Below are positions 13,082 to 37,291 of a stretch of 37,291 bases of DNA, one piece after another. The stretch comes from Bryobacterales bacterium (GTDB taxonomy: Bacteria > Acidobacteriota > Terriglobia > Bryobacterales > Bryobacteraceae): positions 1 to 37,291 of the forward strand of contig DAHVTI010000164.1 in assembly GCA_027324255.1 (NCBI GenBank), in the 5' to 3' direction. Within the stretch, counting starts at the first letter, position 1, and the number at the start of each line of letters is the position of its first letter. Position numbers and translations under genes: made by a program. The notes below the pieces were generated by a model. It was not told the origin of the DNA and did no database searches. It saw only the letters and a program-made list of their open reading frames with translations.

Positions 13082-14206
13082 TTAAGCCTGGTAGCCTTCG
13101 GCCTGGAAGGCCTCGGCCAGGGTGTCGAGAAGCAGCTTGACGTTTTCGGCCGAGGAGCCGTAGCCCATGGTGCCGATGCGGAAGACCTTGCCGGCCAGCG
13201 GCCCGAGTCCGCCGGCGATCTCGATGCCGTGGCCGGCCATCAGCCGCTTGCGGACGTTGAGTTCGTTGACGCCCGCGGGCACCAGCGGTGTGTTGAGCGT
13301 CCAGAGGCGGTGGCCTGCGTTGACGAGCATGCCGATGCCCATTTCGGCGAGGCCGGCGACGAAGGCTTCGTGGTTGGCCTTGTGGCGGGCGAAGCGGGTG
13401 TCGAGCCCCTCTTCGGCGATGATGGCGAGGGACTCGCGCAGGGCGTAAAACATCGAGATGGGCGCGGTGTGGTGGTAGCGGTGGGCGCTCTCGTAGTAGT
13501 CGAGCAGGAGCTTCAGGTCGAGGTACCAGCTCACCGAACTCTGCTTGCGGTTGCGGAGCCATTCGAGTGCCCGCGGGGAGCAGGTGATGGGGGCCAGGCC
13601 GGGGGGACAGCCGAGGGCTTTCTGGGTGCCGCTGTAGGCGATGTCGATGCCGGCATCGTCGACGTCGACGGGCATGCCGCCGAGGCTGGTGACGCAGTCG
13701 GCGATGACGAGGGCGCCGGAGTCGTGGGCGGCCTTCGAGATGCCGTGGCCGGGCTGGTAGGCGCCGGTGGAGGTTTCGGCCTGCACGAAGGCGACGACTT
13801 GCGGCTTTTCGGCGGCAATGAAGTCGCGTGCCTCGGCGTCGGTGTACGTCTCGCCCCAGGGCTTTTCCAGACGGGCGATGACGGCGCCGTGGCGGCGGGC
13901 CATCTCGGTGAGGCGGTCGCTGAAGTAGCCGTTGGCGAAGACGGCGATCTTGGCGCCCGGCTCGACGAAGTTGGTGACGGCGCACTCCATGCCGGCGCTG
14001 CCGGTGCCGGAGATGACCATAGTGAAATCGTTGGCGGTGCCGAAGCACTGCTTCAGCCAGCCGCGGATCTCTTCGTTCACCTGAAAGAAGAAGGGATCGA
14101 GATGGCCGACGATGGGCTGGCGCATCGCTTCGTAAACGCGCGGGTGGACCGGCGACGGGCCGGGGCCGAACAGGTGGCGCGCGGGTGCTTGGAGGGGCGG
14201 AACCAT
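13082..14206 (-). CDS. Class V aminotransferase (alanine-glyoxylate / serine-pyruvate aminotransferase-like)
   Basis: [53 protein letters not shown]...[17 protein letters not shown]; start set at [11 protein letters not shown]. Confidence 0.92.
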
Positions 14207-14221
14207 AGCTACAGTGTATAT

Positions 14222-16522
14222 GTGGAGCCCCTTCCCGTCGACGCGTTCCTCGGCGCCATCGCCGCGGAGCTGCACGGCACTGCCAACCTGGTGCTGGAAG
14301 CCCCGCCGGGCGCGGGCAAGACCACGCGCGTGCCACCGGCGCTGCTCCGGGAACTCCGCGGCGAAGTGCTGGTGTTGGAGCCGCGGCGGCTGGCGGCGCG
14401 GCTGGCCGCGCGGCGCGTGGCCGAGGAGATGGGTGAGCGGCCGGGCGGGACGGTGGGCTACCAGGTGCGCTTCGAGCAGGTGGGCGGCGCGGGGACGCGG
14501 CTACGTTTTCTCACCGAAGGCGTGCTGACGCGGCGGATGCTGTCCGATCCGCAGCTCAAGGGCGTCTCCGCCGTGGTGCTGGACGAATTCCACGAGCGGC
14601 ACCTGGAGGGGGACCTGGCGCTGGCGCTGCTCAGGCGGCTGCAGCGCACGGCGCGGCCGGAGCTGCGGCTGGTGGTGATGTCGGCGACGCTGGACGGCGC
14701 GCGGGTGGCGGAGTTCCTGGGGGGCTGTCCGGTGCTGCGCAGCGAGGGGCGGCTGTATCCGCTGGAGGTCGAGCACACGCCGCATTCGGCCGAGGCGCTG
14801 GAGACATTGGCGGCGGGCGCGGTAGAGCGGCTGCTGCGGGCCGTCGGCGAAGGGGACGTGCTGGTGTTTCTGCCGGGAGCGGCCGAGATCCGCCGCGCCC
14901 AAAGGGCGCTGGAAGGGCTGGGCGGCCGGCGCGGGCTGGAGGTGCTGCCGCTGTACGGCGACCTGCCGGCGGATGAGCAGGACCGCGCGGTGCTGCCGGG
15001 TCCGGCGCGCAAGGTAATTCTGTCCACCAACGTCGCCGAGTCCTCGATTACGATTCCCGGCGTGCGGGCGGTGGTGGATGCGGGGCTGGCGCGGGTGGCG
15101 GCGGATTCGCCCTGGAGCGGGCTGCCGCGGCTGGTGGTGCAGCGGGTGTCGCGAGCCTCCTGCGTGCAGCGGGCTGGACGGGCCGGGCGCACCGGGCCGG
15201 GGCGGGTGGTCCGCCTGTTTTCGCAGGAAGACTTTCTGCGGCGGCCCGAAGCGGAAACGCCGGAGATCCTGCGGCGGGAGCTGGCGCAGTTGTTTCTACA
15301 CCTGCACGCCGCGGGGCTTCGCGACCCGCACGAACTGGAATGGCTGGACACGCCCCCCGAGCCGGCGCTGGCGGCAGCCGAGGAACTGCTGCACCGGCTG
15401 GGTGCGTTGGACAAGGCGGGGGTGGTGACGGCGCTCGGGCGCCGCGCGGCTTCCCTGCCCCTGCACCCGCGGCTGGCGGCGCTGGCGCTCAACGGCGGCG
15501 CGGCCGGCTGCACGGCGGCGGCGGAGCTATCGGCTGCCCAGCCCGCCCAGGCGCGGCAGGTGGAGCAGCAGTTGAGGCGGCTGGTGCCGGGCGCGGCGCG
15601 CAGGCCGTTGGCGGAGGCGTACCTGCGGGCGTTTCCGGATCGAGTGGCGCGGCGGCGCAAAGGCCTGGAACTGCTGCTTTCGAACGGCGCCTCGGCGGTG
15701 CTGGCGTCGAACGAAGGACTGGAACAGGCCGAGTTCCTGGTGGCGCTGGACATCGAGGACCGGCCGGACAAGGGCCTGCCCATCGTGCGGCAGGCGGCGC
15801 AGATCGAGCCGGAGCTGCTGCTGGAGGCGTTCCCGGAGCGGATCCGCGAGCGCAACACGCTGGACTGGAACCGGGCGGCGGAGCGGGTGGAGTCGCTCAG
15901 CGCACTGCTGTACGACGAACTGGTGATCGAAGAGTCTCGCAGCCACACGCCGCCACCGGCGGAGACGGCGGAACTGCTGGCGCGGAAGGCGATGGAAGCG
16001 GGGCTGCAAAGGTTCGCGGACCCGGAGGCGGTGGAGGCGCTGCTGGGGCGGGCGAAGTTCGCGGGGCTGGCGGCGGCCGATCCGGAGTCGGTGCTGCGGG
16101 GGCTGTGCGAGGGGCTGCGCTCCTTCGCCGAGCTGGAGCGGTTGGCGCGGGACGGAGGTCTGGAAGCCGCGCTGCTGGAGGCGCTGGGGCCGGAGGCGCG
16201 GCGGCGGCTGGAACAACTGGCGCCGGCGCGGATCCAACTGCCCTCCGGGCGCTGGGCGACGGTGCACTACCCGCCGGACCGTCCGCCGTGGGTGGCCTCG
16301 CGGCTGCAGGACTTTTTCGGCATGAGCGAGACGCCGCGCGTGGGCGCCGGGCGCACGCCGCTGGTGGCGCATTTGCTGGCGCCGAACCGCCGGCCGGTGC
16401 AGATGACGCAGGACCTGGCGGGCTTCTGGCAGCGGTTGTATCCGCAGGTGCGGAAGGAGCTGAGCCGGCGCTACCCGCGGCACGCCTGGCCCGAGAACCC
16501 TCATGATGCCTGTAAGGACTGA
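14222..16522 (+). CDS. hrpB: ATP-dependent helicase HrpB
   Basis: GTG start; Walker A LEAPPGAGKTTRVP, DEFHERHLEGDLAL, VMSATLDG, STNVAESSITIPGV, QRAGRAGRTGPG. The longer ORF call (13229) reads antisense through the aminotransferase and is not accepted. Confidence 0.92.
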   Translation: MEPLPVDAFLGAIAAELHGTANLVLEAPPGAGKTTRVPPALLRELRGEVLVLEPRRLAARLAARRVAEEMGERPGGTVGYQVRFEQVGGAGTRLRFLTEGVLTRRMLSDPQLKGVSAVVLDEFHERHLEGDLALALLRRLQRTARPELRLVVMSATLDGARVAEFLGGCPVLRSEGRLYPLEVEHTPHSAEALETLAAGAVERLLRAVGEGDVLVFLPGAAEIRRAQRALEGLGGRRGLEVLPLYGDLPADEQDRAVLPGPARKVILSTNVAESSITIPGVRAVVDAGLARVAADSPWSGLPRLVVQRVSRASCVQRAGRAGRTGPGRVVRLFSQEDFLRRPEAETPEILRRELAQLFLHLHAAGLRDPHELEWLDTPPEPALAAAEELLHRLGALDKAGVVTALGRRAASLPLHPRLAALALNGGAAGCTAAAELSAAQPAQARQVEQQLRRLVPGAARRPLAEAYLRAFPDRVARRRKGLELLLSNGASAVLASNEGLEQAEFLVALDIEDRPDKGLPIVRQAAQIEPELLLEAFPERIRERNTLDWNRAAERVESLSALLYDELVIEESRSHTPPPAETAELLARKAMEAGLQRFADPEAVEALLGRAKFAGLAAADPESVLRGLCEGLRSFAELERLARDGGLEAALLEALGPEARRRLEQLAPARIQLPSGRWATVHYPPDRPPWVASRLQDFFGMSETPRVGAGRTPLVAHLLAPNRRPVQMTQDLAGFWQRLYPQVRKELSRRYPRHAWPENPHDACKD

Positions 16523-16523
16523 A

Positions 16524-17741
16524 ATGAAGCTTTTTGCCGCCGTTTTCTTCGCCTGCGCTTTCTTCGCCCGCGCCGGCGCCTGCGCGCAGACTCCCGCCGG
16601 GTTGTGGGATGCCACGCTGCAGGTGGAAGACCGCCAGGTGGCGTTCCGGCTGGACGTGCGGGCCGCTGGCCCGGGCTGGAAAGCGGCCATTTTGGACGGC
16701 GGGCAGCGGATCGAATCCACCTCCGGCACGCTGAGCGGCAACCAACTGGCGCTGCGCTGGGACTACTTCGACGCGGAACTGACGGCCGCGCTGGAAGGCG
16801 GCGGGATGAAGGGGGCTTACTCGCGGCGGACGCGCGCGGGCGTGGTGACGCGGGCGTTCACGGCGCGGCCCTTCCGGCCGCCGCCGGCGGAGCAGCCGGC
16901 CGGGGCGGCGAGCGTCGCTGGCATGTGGCGCATCCAGACCGGCGCGGCGCGCGGGGCGCAGGTGATGGACGGCATTTTCCGGCAGGCCGGGACGGAGGTG
17001 AGCGGGACCATCCAGCGCGTGGACGGCGACTTCGGCACGCTGACGGGCAGGATGGAAGGGAAGCGCCTGACGCTGAGCCACTTCGATGGCATCCGGGCGA
17101 CGCTGATCGAGGGCGAACTGAAACCGGACGGGACGCTGGCCGGCACCATGGACGGGCAAACGCGGTTCACCGCCGCGCGGCTGGACGAGGCGGCGAAGCT
17201 GGGTTTGCCGGAGCCGCCCGACCCGGCGCGCTACGTGGCCGTGAAGAACCCGGCCGAGCCGCTGCGGTTCCGGTTCCAGGACCTGGACGGGCAGTGGGTG
17301 TCGGCGGAGGACCCGGCCTTCCGCGGCAAGGCGATGATCGTGACCATCATGGGGTCGTGGTGCCCGAACTGCCATGACGAGGCGGAGTTCCTGGCGGAGA
17401 TGGACCGGCGCTACCGGGCCGAGGGGCTCGAAATCGTGGCGCTGGGATTCGAATACACGGGCGAAGTGGGGCGCGACCGCGCGCAACTGCGGGCATTTGC
17501 GCGGCGCCACAAGACGGGCTACCGCGTTTTGCTGGCGGGAACGACGGAGGAAGGGTCGGTGCTGCGCGCGCTGCCGCAACTGGCGAACTTCGCGGGCTAC
17601 CCGGCGACGTTGTATCTGGACCGGGACCATCGGGTGCGGGCGGTGCACGCGGGTTTTGCGGGCCCGGCCAATCCACGGGAGCACCAGAAGCTGAAAGCGG
17701 AGTTGGACCACCTGGTGCGCGAATTGCTAAGAAATCGCTAA
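16524..17741 (+). CDS. Secreted thioredoxin-fold (TlpA/redoxin-like) protein with N-terminal duplicated beta-rich domain
   Basis: Signal peptide MKLFAAVFFACAFFARAGACAQ; MIVTIMGSWCPNCHDEAEFLAEM CxxC redoxin motif; LPQLANFAGYPATLYLDRDHRVRAVHAGF. Confidence 0.85.
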   Translation: MKLFAAVFFACAFFARAGACAQTPAGLWDATLQVEDRQVAFRLDVRAAGPGWKAAILDGGQRIESTSGTLSGNQLALRWDYFDAELTAALEGGGMKGAYSRRTRAGVVTRAFTARPFRPPPAEQPAGAASVAGMWRIQTGAARGAQVMDGIFRQAGTEVSGTIQRVDGDFGTLTGRMEGKRLTLSHFDGIRATLIEGELKPDGTLAGTMDGQTRFTAARLDEAAKLGLPEPPDPARYVAVKNPAEPLRFRFQDLDGQWVSAEDPAFRGKAMIVTIMGSWCPNCHDEAEFLAEMDRRYRAEGLEIVALGFEYTGEVGRDRAQLRAFARRHKTGYRVLLAGTTEEGSVLRALPQLANFAGYPATLYLDRDHRVRAVHAGFAGPANPREHQKLKAELDHLVRELLRNR

Positions 17742-32983: not shown

Positions 32984-35035
32984 CTAGCGCTCCTCGATCT
33001 TCGCAATGGCCGCCTCGGCGTTCCACTGCACGCGCGGCACTTTGCGGAGCTGCCGCAGCGCCGGCACGGCCTGGGCCGCCGCAGGGCCGAGGGCGCCCAA
33101 CGCGTCGGCGACGCTGCGCAGCACCTGAACGTGTTCGCCCTCGGCGCCGGCCGCCGCGATCAACGCATCCAGGGCGGGCGCCGCGGCCGGCCCCAGCGCG
33201 GCCAGCGCATTGGCGCTCATCATGCGCACGCCGCTGTCCGCGTCTTTCAAACCGGCGATCAGCGCGGGCAGTGCCGGCGCGGCCGGCGCGCCGAGGCCCC
33301 GCAACGCAACGGCCGCCAGACCGCGCACCTCGGCACTGCGGTCGCTCATCGCCTGTTCCAACTGCTTGAGCCCGCGTCCGGCCAGCCGGGCGTGCTGCGT
33401 CGCGCGCCACACGGCGGCGGCCCGCACGAAGCTGTCGGCGTCCTGCAGGGCGGCGATCCACTCGGCGTCCGTCACCGAGCCGGTGCGCAAGCGCTCGGCC
33501 TTGTCTCCGCCGGCAGCCTCGGGCGAGGCCACGCGGGCCGGCACCACGGTGTCCAGGCCGAAATGGTATCCGCCCGAGCGCTCGTCTTTGGCCTGGCACA
33601 CGAAGCTCAATACATGCTGCCCCTTCGTGAGCCGCGGCCAGGCCAGGACATGATCCTCGGCCACGTACAGCTCGGTGTGCCAGGCGTTGATCAGTGTGGC
33701 TCCGCCGATGTTCGCGCCGGGCTCGTGCTCCAGATCGCCGGCCGCCTGCACCGGCTTGCCGTCCAGCAGCACGCTGTAGATGCCGTAGTCCGGAGCGTGC
33801 GCCACCTGCGCCAGCAGCTCGTAGCGGCCGTCCGATTCCACGTCGAAGGGCACGTCGAGCCGCGCGCCGGGGCCCTCGGCTTCGAGAAACAGCAGGTCGC
33901 GCGACCAGAAGACCTCTTTCTGCACGGAGGCCTTGCCGCGCGCTGCCTTCACACGCGCGATATCCTGCTCCACTTCGATCTGGCGCGCGTTGCCGTGAGG
34001 CAGCCGCGCCACGCCGTAGGGCGGCACGGGCAGCCCTTGCGCGATGCCCTGCTGGTACCAGAACGCGACGCTGCTGAAGAGGTCGGCCCGCTCTTCGAAT
34101 CCGGACCGCACGCTGCCGTCGGCGTTGTACGTCCAGCCGGCGTGCTCGATCTCCAGCTTCAGCGACCGGCGGAAGGGCACCGGGTCCGCCACGTGCCACC
34201 GGTAGGCCGTCATGCGCGACGACTCACCCGTGCCCTCGGCCACGGGCACGCCCGTGTACGGCCCGTTGGCCACGCGCAGGGACCACGCGTCGTTGAAGTA
34301 ATCCTCCGTGCCCGTGCCCTCGATGGACGCCTTCGGCGCGCCGTCCACGAAGAAGAACTCGTCGCCCTCGCCGAACCAGCCGGGCTCCTTCTGGATCACG
34401 CTGAACACCGTGCCGGCGTAATGGCCGCGCCCCGCGACGTCGAGGATGGTGTAGTGCCGCCCCATCCGCGCCGGCAACTCCTGGCGGTACCAGGCGTGGA
34501 AGTAGCCAATGTCGGCGGCGAGCGCCGGCACCTTGCGCCAGTCCACGTGGTAGTAAAGGTTCGAGCTGCGCCGCCGGCCTTCGTTGGTGATGGTGATGCG
34601 GCAGTGCTTGCGGAACGGCATCGGCCAGTAGGAGTTGCGCGATCGCCCGCTGGAGGAGTCGCGGATGAGCAGCGACTCGACGGTGCGCTCCACGCCGTGG
34701 CCCACGGCGAAGAAGTCGCCCACCGGAGCGTCGACGCTCGGCGTCGCGCTGCCGTCGTAATAGACGCGCAGGCGGAACAGCCGCGGCCAGCCGTACTCGT
34801 TGGAAGCGACGGTGAGCCAGATGTGCGTCACCACGCCGGGCCCTTCCAGATCGGCCAGCACGACGGTCTCGCCGGGGATGGGCCGCAGGCTGTCGTCGTT
34901 GCTCAGCAGGTTGGGGTTGTTGCTCGACGCGCGAAAGGCCGCGTAGTCCTTGAGGCGGGCGAGGTCGAGCCAATCCTGCGCCGCCGCGCCGCCGGACAGG
35001 GCGCAGAGCGACACAACGAAGAAGGGGAACCGCAT
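32984..35035 (-). CDS. DUF2961 / GH172-like protein with C-terminal HEAT repeats
   Basis: Signal peptide; ADLEGPGVVTHIWLT, NSYWPMPFRKHCRITITNEG, FFVDGAPKASIEGTGTEDYFNDAW; C-terminus with about 3-4 HEAT repeats (SAEVRGLAAVALRGLGAPAAPALPALIAGLKDADSGVRMMSANALAALG). Confidence 0.87.
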   Translation of the reverse strand: MRFPFFVVSLCALSGGAAAQDWLDLARLKDYAAFRASSNNPNLLSNDDSLRPIPGETVVLADLEGPGVVTHIWLTVASNEYGWPRLFRLRVYYDGSATPSVDAPVGDFFAVGHGVERTVESLLIRDSSSGRSRNSYWPMPFRKHCRITITNEGRRRSSNLYYHVDWRKVPALAADIGYFHAWYRQELPARMGRHYTILDVAGRGHYAGTVFSVIQKEPGWFGEGDEFFFVDGAPKASIEGTGTEDYFNDAWSLRVANGPYTGVPVAEGTGESSRMTAYRWHVADPVPFRRSLKLEIEHAGWTYNADGSVRSGFEERADLFSSVAFWYQQGIAQGLPVPPYGVARLPHGNARQIEVEQDIARVKAARGKASVQKEVFWSRDLLFLEAEGPGARLDVPFDVESDGRYELLAQVAHAPDYGIYSVLLDGKPVQAAGDLEHEPGANIGGATLINAWHTELYVAEDHVLAWPRLTKGQHVLSFVCQAKDERSGGYHFGLDTVVPARVASPEAAGGDKAERLRTGSVTDAEWIAALQDADSFVRAAAVWRATQHARLAGRGLKQLEQAMSDRSAEVRGLAAVALRGLGAPAAPALPALIAGLKDADSGVRMMSANALAALGPAAAPALDALIAAAGAEGEHVQVLRSVADALGALGPAAAQAVPALRQLRKVPRVQWNAEAAIAKIEER

Positions 35036-35082
35036 GGCGCGGCCAGGATATCAGGTCTTGAGAGCGGGTGGAGGAGGCAAGG

Positions 35083-35115
35083 TGGTGGGCTCGGCAGAAC
35101 TCGAATCTGCGACCT
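35083..35115 (-). pseudogene. tRNA gene 3'-end remnant (T-arm, acceptor 3' strand, CCA); candidate att site
   Basis: Minus strand reads AGGTC-GCAGATTCGAGTTCTGC-CGAGCCC-A-CCA; no matching GGGCTCG acceptor strand or D-arm upstream on that strand. Confidence 0.6.
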
Positions 35116-35190
35116 CTACCGGGTCAAGGTTTAGCTCCGGAAGGTGGAAGTCTCGTGGTGTCAGTCACATACAGGCTTTTCCGCTAGTCC

Positions 35191-35221
35191 TGGAGTCCAA
35201 ATGGAGTCCACTTGGAGTCCA
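35191..35221. repeat. Three TGGAGTCCA iterons with exact 11-bp spacing
   Basis: TGGAGTCCAAA TGGAGTCCACT TGGAGTCCAAG starting at 35191, 35202, 35213. Confidence 0.85.
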
Positions 35222-35307
35222 AGTCCCTTGTTTTCATGGGCATGATGGACGCCGGATCGCGCCCATGATTGGGCAAGCCGTTTCAACGGCTTGGCAGGAT
35301 GGGCAGC

Positions 35308-35403
35308 ATGGGCAGGATGTTCTCGCCGTTGTCTCCTCGTCAATGCCGTGTGGTACGAGGAGACGATTTTCGTTTCTCCTATATGAGCGGCGATCCTGCC
35401 CAT
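35308..35403. repeat. Nested inverted repeats (outer 11-bp ATGGGCAGGAT/ATCCTGCCCAT; inner 10-bp GTCTCCTCGT/ACGAGGAGAC)
   Basis: Outer arms 35308-35318 and 35393-35403; inner arms 35331-35340 and 35355-35364, both perfect. Confidence 0.8.
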
Positions 35404-35495
35404 CGCGCCCCGGCCGAGCTCGGCATCGCGGTTGACTTGACACCAAGCCTCGATTCCCAGGTCAAGACTATGGTTATCGCCAATTTATGTCACCT

Positions 35496-35813
35496 TCAGG
35501 CTGGCACCCGTTCGGCCGGCGCTACGCGCCGTACGCGGATCTTTACCTCGACCCGCGAGCCCAGGCGGTTGAGGATGGACATGAGTCTGTCCACGGTGAA
35601 GCGCCCCAGATCCGCATTCCGGATGCGCGAGAAGTCGGCCGCGGCGAATCCCGTGCGGTCGTGCGCCGCGCGCACCGTCAGTCGCTGCTTGTCGAGCGTC
35701 TTGATGATTTCGGCAGCGAGGATGGCCTTGAACTGCTCGGCGTCCGCGTTCTCGTGCCCGAGGTCACGAAACACATTGCCGCCGCCCCGCACCACTTCTA
35801 GCTTTTCTCTCAT
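35496..35813 (-). CDS. HTH antitoxin (HigA/XRE-type, HTH_37-like)
   Basis: EQFKAILAAEIIKTLDKQRLTVRAAHDRTGFAAADFSRIRNADLGRFTVDRLMSILNRLGSRVEV; start overlaps toxin stop by ATGA. Confidence 0.85.
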   Translation of the reverse strand: MREKLEVVRGGGNVFRDLGHENADAEQFKAILAAEIIKTLDKQRLTVRAAHDRTGFAAADFSRIRNADLGRFTVDRLMSILNRLGSRVEVKIRVRRVAPAERVPA

Positions 35814-36157
35814 CCCAGCATCTCCTTCAGCCGCTTAAGTCGGTCCTTGACGAGGTCTATCTCGCGCTTTGGCGTCCCGATGCCCTGTGTCGACCTCTTC
35901 TGGAAGGCATGAAGCACCCAGATCTCATCGGCGAGTTGCACCGCATAGACCACGCGAAAGGCGTCGCCCCTGAACGCCAGCGCTATCTCGAACACGCCCG
36001 AGCCTAGGCCGTGCATTGGCTTCGCGATATCGGCCTTGCCGCCCTCCGCAGCGATTGTCAGCGCCGCGAGGCAGATTGCCTGCGCTCCCTCCGGGAAAGC
36101 CTCGAATTCCCTGAGCGCCGCCCTGATCCACGAGACGGGCCTTGTCTTCCGCGTCAT
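35810..36157 (-). CDS. HigB/RelE-like toxin (phage-derived Gp49-like family)
   Basis: RPVSWIRAALREFEAFPEGAQ...KPMHGLGSGVFEIALAFRGDAFRVVYAVQLADEIWVLHAFQKRSTQGIGTPKREIDLVKDRLKRLKEM; start placed at internal Met because ORF start 36208 lies in the palindromic operator. Confidence 0.85.
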   Translation of the reverse strand: MTRKTRPVSWIRAALREFEAFPEGAQAICLAALTIAAEGGKADIAKPMHGLGSGVFEIALAFRGDAFRVVYAVQLADEIWVLHAFQKRSTQGIGTPKREIDLVKDRLKRLKEMLG

Positions 36158-36198
36158 CTGCCGGTCGCCGCCTTTGTTTGTCGAATCTGCCCTCAGAC

Positions 36199-36220
36199 AT
36201 GTTGTCACCTATGACAACAT
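36199..36220. promoter_or_regulatory. Palindromic operator upstream of the toxin-antitoxin operon
   Basis: ATGTTGTCA-CCTA-TGACAACAT, perfect 9-bp arms. Confidence 0.75.
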
Positions 36221-36459: not shown

Positions 36460-36510
36460 ACGGAGGAGGCACTCAGGACATGAGTTCAGGTGGAGCTAAG
36501 CTCCATCATC

Positions 36511-37291
36511 GTGAGCAATGTCTTGAGCCAAGAGAAACAGAACCAGGTGATCGCGCTCGGCCGGCTTGGCTGGCCGTTGAGGCGCATCGAGAAGGCGACC
36601 GGCGTCCGGCGGGAGACTGCCGCTGGCTATCTTCGTTCCGCCGGCGTGCCTGTGCGCCAGCCGGGGCGATGGGGCCGGCAGGCGCCGGAATCAAATCCGG
36701 CCATAGAGGTGACCACCGGCTCTGCCGGCGGCGCCACGCCAAATCCGGCCAACGAGGCGCCCCAGGTGACCACCGACTCAGAGCCGCCCCAGCCGGCGCG
36801 GAGCCCCTCCGCCAGCGCCTGCCTGCCGTACCACGAACTCATCCAGGCCGGCCTGTCCAAGGGTCGCAACGCCATGGGCATCTGGCAGGACCTCGTCGAC
36901 CAGAGCGGCTTCACCGGCGCCTACGAGAGCGTGAAGCGCTACGTGCGCAAGCTGCGCGGCGCGCGCAGCCCGGAACCCCGCGCCGTCATCGTGACCGCGC
37001 CCGGGGAAGAAGCGCAGGTCGACTACGGCACCGGCCCGATGGTCCGGGATCCGCAGACCGGCAAGTACCGGCGCACACGGCTGTTTGTGATGACGCTCGG
37101 CTGCAGCCGCAAAGCCGTCCGCCTGCTGGTCTTCGAATCGAGCACTCAGACCTGGGCGCAACTGCATGAGCAGGCGTTCCGCCGCCTGGGCGGCAGCGTG
37201 CGCGTTGTCGTGCTCGACAACCTCTCCGAAGGCGTGCTCAAACCCGACATCTACGATCCCGCGCTGAATCCGCTCTATCGCGACGTGCTGG
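36511..37291 (+). CDS. istA: IS21-family transposase IstA, 3' truncated by window edge
   Basis: Frame from GTG 36511 (VSNVLSQEKQNQVIALGRLGWPLRRIEKATGVRRETAAGYLRSAG...) open to the window end; YESVKRYVRKLRG...APGEEAQVDYGTGPMVRD...RLFVMTLGCSRKAVRLLVFESSTQTWAQLHEQAFRRLGGSVRVVVLDNLSEGVLKPDIYDPALNPLYRDVL. Absent from the ORF track because it is open-ended. Confidence 0.9.
   Translation, partial: MSNVLSQEKQNQVIALGRLGWPLRRIEKATGVRRETAAGYLRSAGVPVRQPGRWGRQAPESNPAIEVTTGSAGGATPNPANEAPQVTTDSEPPQPARSPSASACLPYHELIQAGLSKGRNAMGIWQDLVDQSGFTGAYESVKRYVRKLRGARSPEPRAVIVTAPGEEAQVDYGTGPMVRDPQTGKYRRTRLFVMTLGCSRKAVRLLVFESSTQTWAQLHEQAFRRLGGSVRVVVLDNLSEGVLKPDIYDPALNPLYRDVL

Follow-up and report, generated by a model that had tools for sequence, protein, structure and literature searches.

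The window, by which we mean the whole stretch of 37,291 nucleotides that was analysed, carries DUF2961 and SSS-transporter genes followed on the right by a short truncated tRNA, a set of regularly spaced repeats and a toxin-antitoxin pair. The features of this region are as follows.

32984-35035, minus strand: DUF2961/HEAT protein (domain search), first gene outside the putative element; its orthologues in relatives have no tRNA nearby
35083-35413, minus strand: probable right-end module of the element, attR type; 78-84% aligned in genomes G013, G121, G204, G205 and (from 35191) G122
35083-35130, minus strand: 3' part of a tRNA-Val(GAC), positions 30-77, from the anticodon loop to CCA; 98% over 49 bp to the intact tRNA-Val(GAC) on contig C287
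35160-35176, minus strand: GCCTGTATGTGACTGAC, counterpart by sequence comparison of GGCTGTAAGTGATTGAT, which lies on the 5' side of the core in right ends at tRNA-Ala and tRNA-Pro
35191-35221, no strand assigned: three TGGAGTCCA 9-mers starting at 35191, 35202 and 35213 with exact 11-bp spacing; putative integrase arm-binding sites
35290-35413, no strand assigned: long imperfect palindrome GGGCAGGAT...ATCCTGCCC of ~120 bp, predicted fold z about -5
35496-35813, minus strand: HTH_37 antitoxin-like protein (PF13744, E=1.4e-21), cargo
35810-36208, minus strand: Gp49/HigB-like toxin (PF05973, E=3e-18), cargo
36490-37291, plus strand: IS21-like transposase (PF00665, rve), truncated where the contig stops and present once in the assembly

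The earlier note had described a tRNA 3' end with CCA on the minus strand, devoid of its 5' half, followed by three repeats spaced exactly 11 bp. The remnant is real and reaches ~15 bp beyond the limit of 35115 given there, and the repeats and their spacing were confirmed, as were the toxin-antitoxin operon and the IS21 element to the right. No complete tRNA was detected in the window by ARAGORN, and the 2.4 kb surrounding the feature matched no Rfam family. When the window was dinucleotide-shuffled 100 times the two-repeat pattern never appeared, and across the 6.17 Mb of the assembly it is confined to the window and contig C287. A repeated IS21 element was considered as the cause of the contig end and rejected, the body of the element being present in one copy in the assembly.

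The search of the remnant against its own genome identified an intact tRNA-Val(GAC) on C287 that is identical to window positions 35082-35130 in 48 of 49 letters, a single mismatch separating the two; the second match, a tRNA-Val(GAC) on contig C243, reached 89% over 57 bp. On C287, 47 bp separate the intact tRNA from TGGAGTCCAAATGGAGTCCA, beyond which about 1.6 kb remain before the contig ends, so that a matching other end with an intact tRNA and the same arm repeats is present in the genome. The earlier note had called for an intact tRNA downstream of the remnant; such a copy does exist, with the repeats on its 3' side, but it lies on this separate contig. Upstream of the C287 tRNA there is a GHL6-like gene that is kept at or near tRNA-Val in the same-genus genomes. 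Because the gene on the 5' side is conserved while the 3' side differs in most relatives, which is the layout expected of a tRNA-Val insertion, C287 is likely to be the left end matching the right end in the window. C287 stops just after IS21-like sequence and the window contig stops inside it, so that their linkage as the two ends of one element is a putative one.

Several minor observations concern these contigs. A palindrome of ~120 bp of the form GGGCAGGATG...CCTGCCC is present at both ends (window 35290-35413 and L006:11830-11950, the latter at the C287 left end); its predicted fold is weak on C287 (z -1.2, vs the value listed for the window), and its inner stem carries a few both-sided changes. 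On C243 of the same genome, G000 (L005:9500-9700), a second arrangement occurs in which a complete tRNA-Val(GAC) has the repeats on its 5' side. Locus L137 (JAJZSR010000206.1) carries a Proteobacteria title but matches C287 across the left end with 99.6% identity over 2.9 kb, and because of this identity it is probably mis-binned and derived from the species of the window.

In the genome contig collection the TGGAGTCCANNTGGAGTCCA pattern matched 66 stretches, and an intact or partial tRNA lies within about 110 bp in 51 of them, a few of these matches being weak. Among the remaining 15 stretches, 11 belong to records titled as other phyla and have no tRNA nearby; these were set aside, their number being near the chance count (about 7-8 expected, as estimated by base frequency). 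The repeat pairs are mostly located 46-52 bp, and in some cases 71-74 bp, past the 3' end of tRNA-Ala(GGC), -Pro(GGG), -Phe(GAA) or -Val(GAC), and in a smaller class they are found 5' of 3'-half remnants that start at tRNA position 23-32. The pattern is present in 43 of the 237 genomes of the family, and the reversed control in 0 of these 43. The layout in Bryobacteraceae is thus one of repeats at a nearly fixed distance from an intact tRNA-Val, -Ala, -Pro or -Phe (left ends) or beside 3'-half remnants (right ends), and it is for this reason that the window is read as a right attachment end. It could be argued that the repeats are unrelated to integration, representing for example an operator or a replication iteron, and that the tRNA remnant arose by chance or through duplication, given that TGGANTCCA is nearly palindromic and that a spacing of one helical turn is often seen in operators or iterons. 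Two findings make this explanation highly improbable: the distance between the repeats and tRNA genes of four kinds, or their remnants, hardly varies over dozens of genomes, and in the attP-like junction described below the core has repeats on either side.

The right-end module has relatives in five other genomes, namely G013 (L086), G121 (L312), G204 (L311), G205 (L313) and, from 35191 only, G122 (L119). The homology runs from the tRNA 3' end to 35402-35415, and beyond the latter limit the cargo differs from genome to genome; the same right end therefore stands beside different flanks in these five genomes, as expected of an attR. The cargo adjoining right ends elsewhere includes AbiEi (L141), an HTH_66-DUF433 pair (L148), AAA_14-DUF4143 (L145) and a 357-aa protein (L086). 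These homologous right ends, which occur in other genera too, taken together with the intact tRNA and the same repeats on C287, support the proposal of the earlier note that an attachment-site scar with arm-type repeats is present and that the element extends rightward. The comparison with relatives recommended there was productive in the differently flanked right ends, but no relative lacking the insertion was found.

Temperate phages and islands integrate in the 3' halves of tRNA genes by means of a tyrosine integrase (PF00589, PHROG phrog_1). The route to the relevant integrase family was provided by L168, where such an integrase lies near the repeats and a tRNA-Pro; the family is present in 45 of the 237 genomes. 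A whole element of 7.4 kb was recognized in L246, running from tRNA-Ala through the left repeats, the integrase and the right repeats to an Ala remnant, and the integrase, right repeats and Ala remnant are also found in L247, L250 and L254. Repeat pairs occur in 9 of 20 integrase regions vs 0 of 23 control regions. On the viral contig L327 the arms flank a single Ala core on both sides, a layout that resembles attP and could also be a tandem junction. Relatives of the integrase are carried by contigs of IMG/VR, whose length is 34-86 kb in most cases, and ParB-methyltransferase or terminase genes come next after some of the left ends. Autonomous members are therefore likely to be temperate phages. 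In the integrase tree the four Ala-site members group together (87/99), the Val-site member groups with the integrase of G205, a genome that also has a Val-type right end, and the Pro-site members form a few small groups; with the target assigned as the nearest tRNA fragment in each region, the family appears to group largely by tRNA target.

In the assembly of the window itself (G000), where the element is incompletely assembled, the search for an integrase of this tRNA-targeting family returned none, for which either loss or a gap in the assembly may be responsible; the tyrosine integrase expected downstream was thus not found there. The five PF00589 proteins of this genome all lie outside the family, and the candidates on C480, C315, C100 and C36 were rejected, having no tRNA nearby. 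As side observations, in L168, L246 and L252 the integrase comes with a UvrD-like helicase or primase-helicase gene, the two possibly forming a replication-integration module, and at L252:4362-4654 a chromosomal tRNA-Val is cut at position 42 and followed by repeats and then by a foreign complete tRNA-Val with a different anticodon stem. A 37-kb stretch in G172 was considered as a single prophage, but a second integrase lies inside it and nested elements are equally possible.

Taken together, the data suggest that window positions 35083-35413 are very probably the attR-type end of an element in tRNA-Val(GAC), integrated by a tyrosine integrase of this phage-related Bryobacteraceae family. The crossover point would fall within the tRNA's 3' half; the tRNA would stay intact at the C287 end because the element supplies the 3' half, and the displaced chromosomal 3' half would be left at the window end. 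The TGGAGTCCA repeats that flank the core would serve as arm-binding sites of the integrase, the cargo beside the window end would be the HigBA-like toxin-antitoxin pair with the adjoining IS21-like insertion, and an element without an integrase of its own may be moved in trans by related phages. This reading is supported by the remnant and its intact copy, the restriction of the repeats to the window and C287, the module in the five other genomes, the complete L246 element, the association of repeat pairs with integrase regions and the L327 junction. It is weakened by the absence of a family integrase from the assembly, the location of the two ends on separate contigs, the one mismatch, the want of an empty site and a left flank that differs from the 3' flank of tRNA-Val in every relative compared.

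The last of these points deserves attention. The genes to the left of the remnant had been described as ordinary chromosomal ones, and DUF2961 and SSS-transporter genes are indeed there, but they may not represent the ancestral flank of the tRNA: relatives have no tRNA upstream of their DUF2961 orthologue, and the same-genus genomes have none of the window-left genes 3' of tRNA-Val, a comparison that reached about 60-70 kb in the two most complete of them. A relative holding both flanks without the insertion was searched for and none was found, the 5' flank of tRNA-Val being conserved and its 3' flank different in every case; the empty-site search from the L246 and L130 flanks revealed no adjacent tRNA. 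Since these searches of tRNA-Val synteny and of DUF2961-tRNA neighbourhoods came up empty, the left flank may be another island or a rearranged region. In the first case the remnant would be an internal junction of two elements accreted in a tandem or composite array at tRNA-Val, and the left part of the window would be an older island. This is unlikely but worth keeping in mind, as the 3' flank of tRNA-Val varies in most relatives, the window-left genes lie elsewhere than near its 3' side, and stacked or repeated cores are seen in L246-L248 and L335; on the other hand, the 35 kb on the left contain no second remnant or arm repeats, and the left genes look chromosomal, with diverse orthologues in relatives. 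In the second case a later deletion, inversion or integrase-mediated exchange would have brought the right end beside the DUF2961 gene, and the window and C287 would not constitute one present-day element. The distance of DUF2961 orthologues from tRNA-Val in relatives and the absence of any family integrase from the assembly would fit such a scar; nevertheless, we judge it quite improbable, because the right-end module extends unbroken as far as the tRNA 3' end, like its counterparts in the five other genomes, and because repeats are borne by just two ends, C287 and the window, which are complementary. A separate observation is that a block at window 13103-17741, with about 60-75% protein identity to L092:7048-11798 of G013, lies on the 3' side of the remnant, and its counterpart in G013 is found 5-10 kb from tRNA-Val, on the 5' side.

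Returning to the attR reading, elements with both end types and no integrase match were found at tRNA-Ala in L130 (2.4 kb), L172 (1.4 kb) and L248 (2.5 kb) and at tRNA-Pro in L166 (3.9 kb). These four have the organization of cis-mobilizable elements, with both att ends and no recombinase between them; the element of the window is not assembled end to end. L335 (3.7 kb, Val), which lay outside the separate integrase search, also has both ends and no evident integrase, and a 0.85-kb segment of L247 has a right end without arm repeats; this segment carries an apparent MNT/HEPN pair, as read from the translation. The integrase-less elements are presumably moved in trans by related phages. In a broader and more tentative proposal, to which we would give somewhat less than an even chance, the phage integrases of Bryobacteraceae keep one arm-site code across four tRNA targets, and the integrase-less cassettes of 1.4-3.9 kb with the same end modules, some bearing toxin-antitoxin or defence cargo, are inserted and stacked in trans, which would amount to a tRNA-based gene-cassette system.

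The elements share with tRNA-integrating phages and islands the direct repeat of the tRNA 3' half, an intact tRNA at one end, arm repeats on both sides and a PF00589 integrase in the complete relatives, and differ from them in that one arm repeat is common to elements in four tRNA genes and that the window's genome has no family integrase. By analogy only, they resemble integron gene cassettes, being small cargo units without a recombinase that can be stacked at one site, although the site here is a tRNA 3' half with arm repeats and no folded attC, in contrast to the attC/IntI system. Tycheposons are tRNA-integrating, cargo-carrying elements with a tyrosine recombinase, and in these three respects they offer a resemblance, which is all that we mean by naming them. 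Tycheposons of marine bacteria are mentioned in PMC10872708. The nearest published analogue found is the ssrA islands of Dehalococcoides, in which accreted units are separated by 3' repeats of the RNA gene and some lack an integration module (PMC3146451). Tandem units, RNA-gene 3' repeats and some members without an integration module are common to both, whereas those islands use a serine recombinase and one target and our elements use tyrosine integrases and four tRNA targets. The passages on integrases, islands or prophages in two Acidobacteria genome papers (PMC3174227, PMC5900883) do not mention the repeat-plus-tRNA signature, and no description of the family was found in the open-licence literature on the repeat, on Acidobacteria tRNA islands or on integrase-less tRNA cassettes. 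The scar itself is thus of a known kind, while a family with one arm repeat across four tRNA targets and with integrase-less members of 1.4-3.9 kb appears to be undescribed, a provisional statement since the search covered open-licence literature only.

Integrases of different tRNA specificity with common arm repeats represent a natural series for the study of target change at constant arm sites, and through the short members without an integrase, toxin-antitoxin and defence genes may have a way of travelling among poorly cultured soil acidobacteria. The repeat-plus-tRNA signature also makes such elements easily spotted in draft genomes. Two further observations concern other tRNA-Val loci. 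In the same-genus locus L087 (G001:C143) a Cas9-like protein (1043 aa) and then a Cas1-like protein, both read from translation, are encoded at about +1.1 to +5.3 kb directly 3' of tRNA-Val, a position that would be fitting for a defence hotspot. On the reverse strand of L335, at about 4.0-4.1 kb, a tRNA-Val right end adjoining terminase-like and portal-like genes (again read from translation) carries 11-bp-spaced CTGGCACA instead of TGGAGTCCA, which suggests that other arm codes may be used at the same tRNA.
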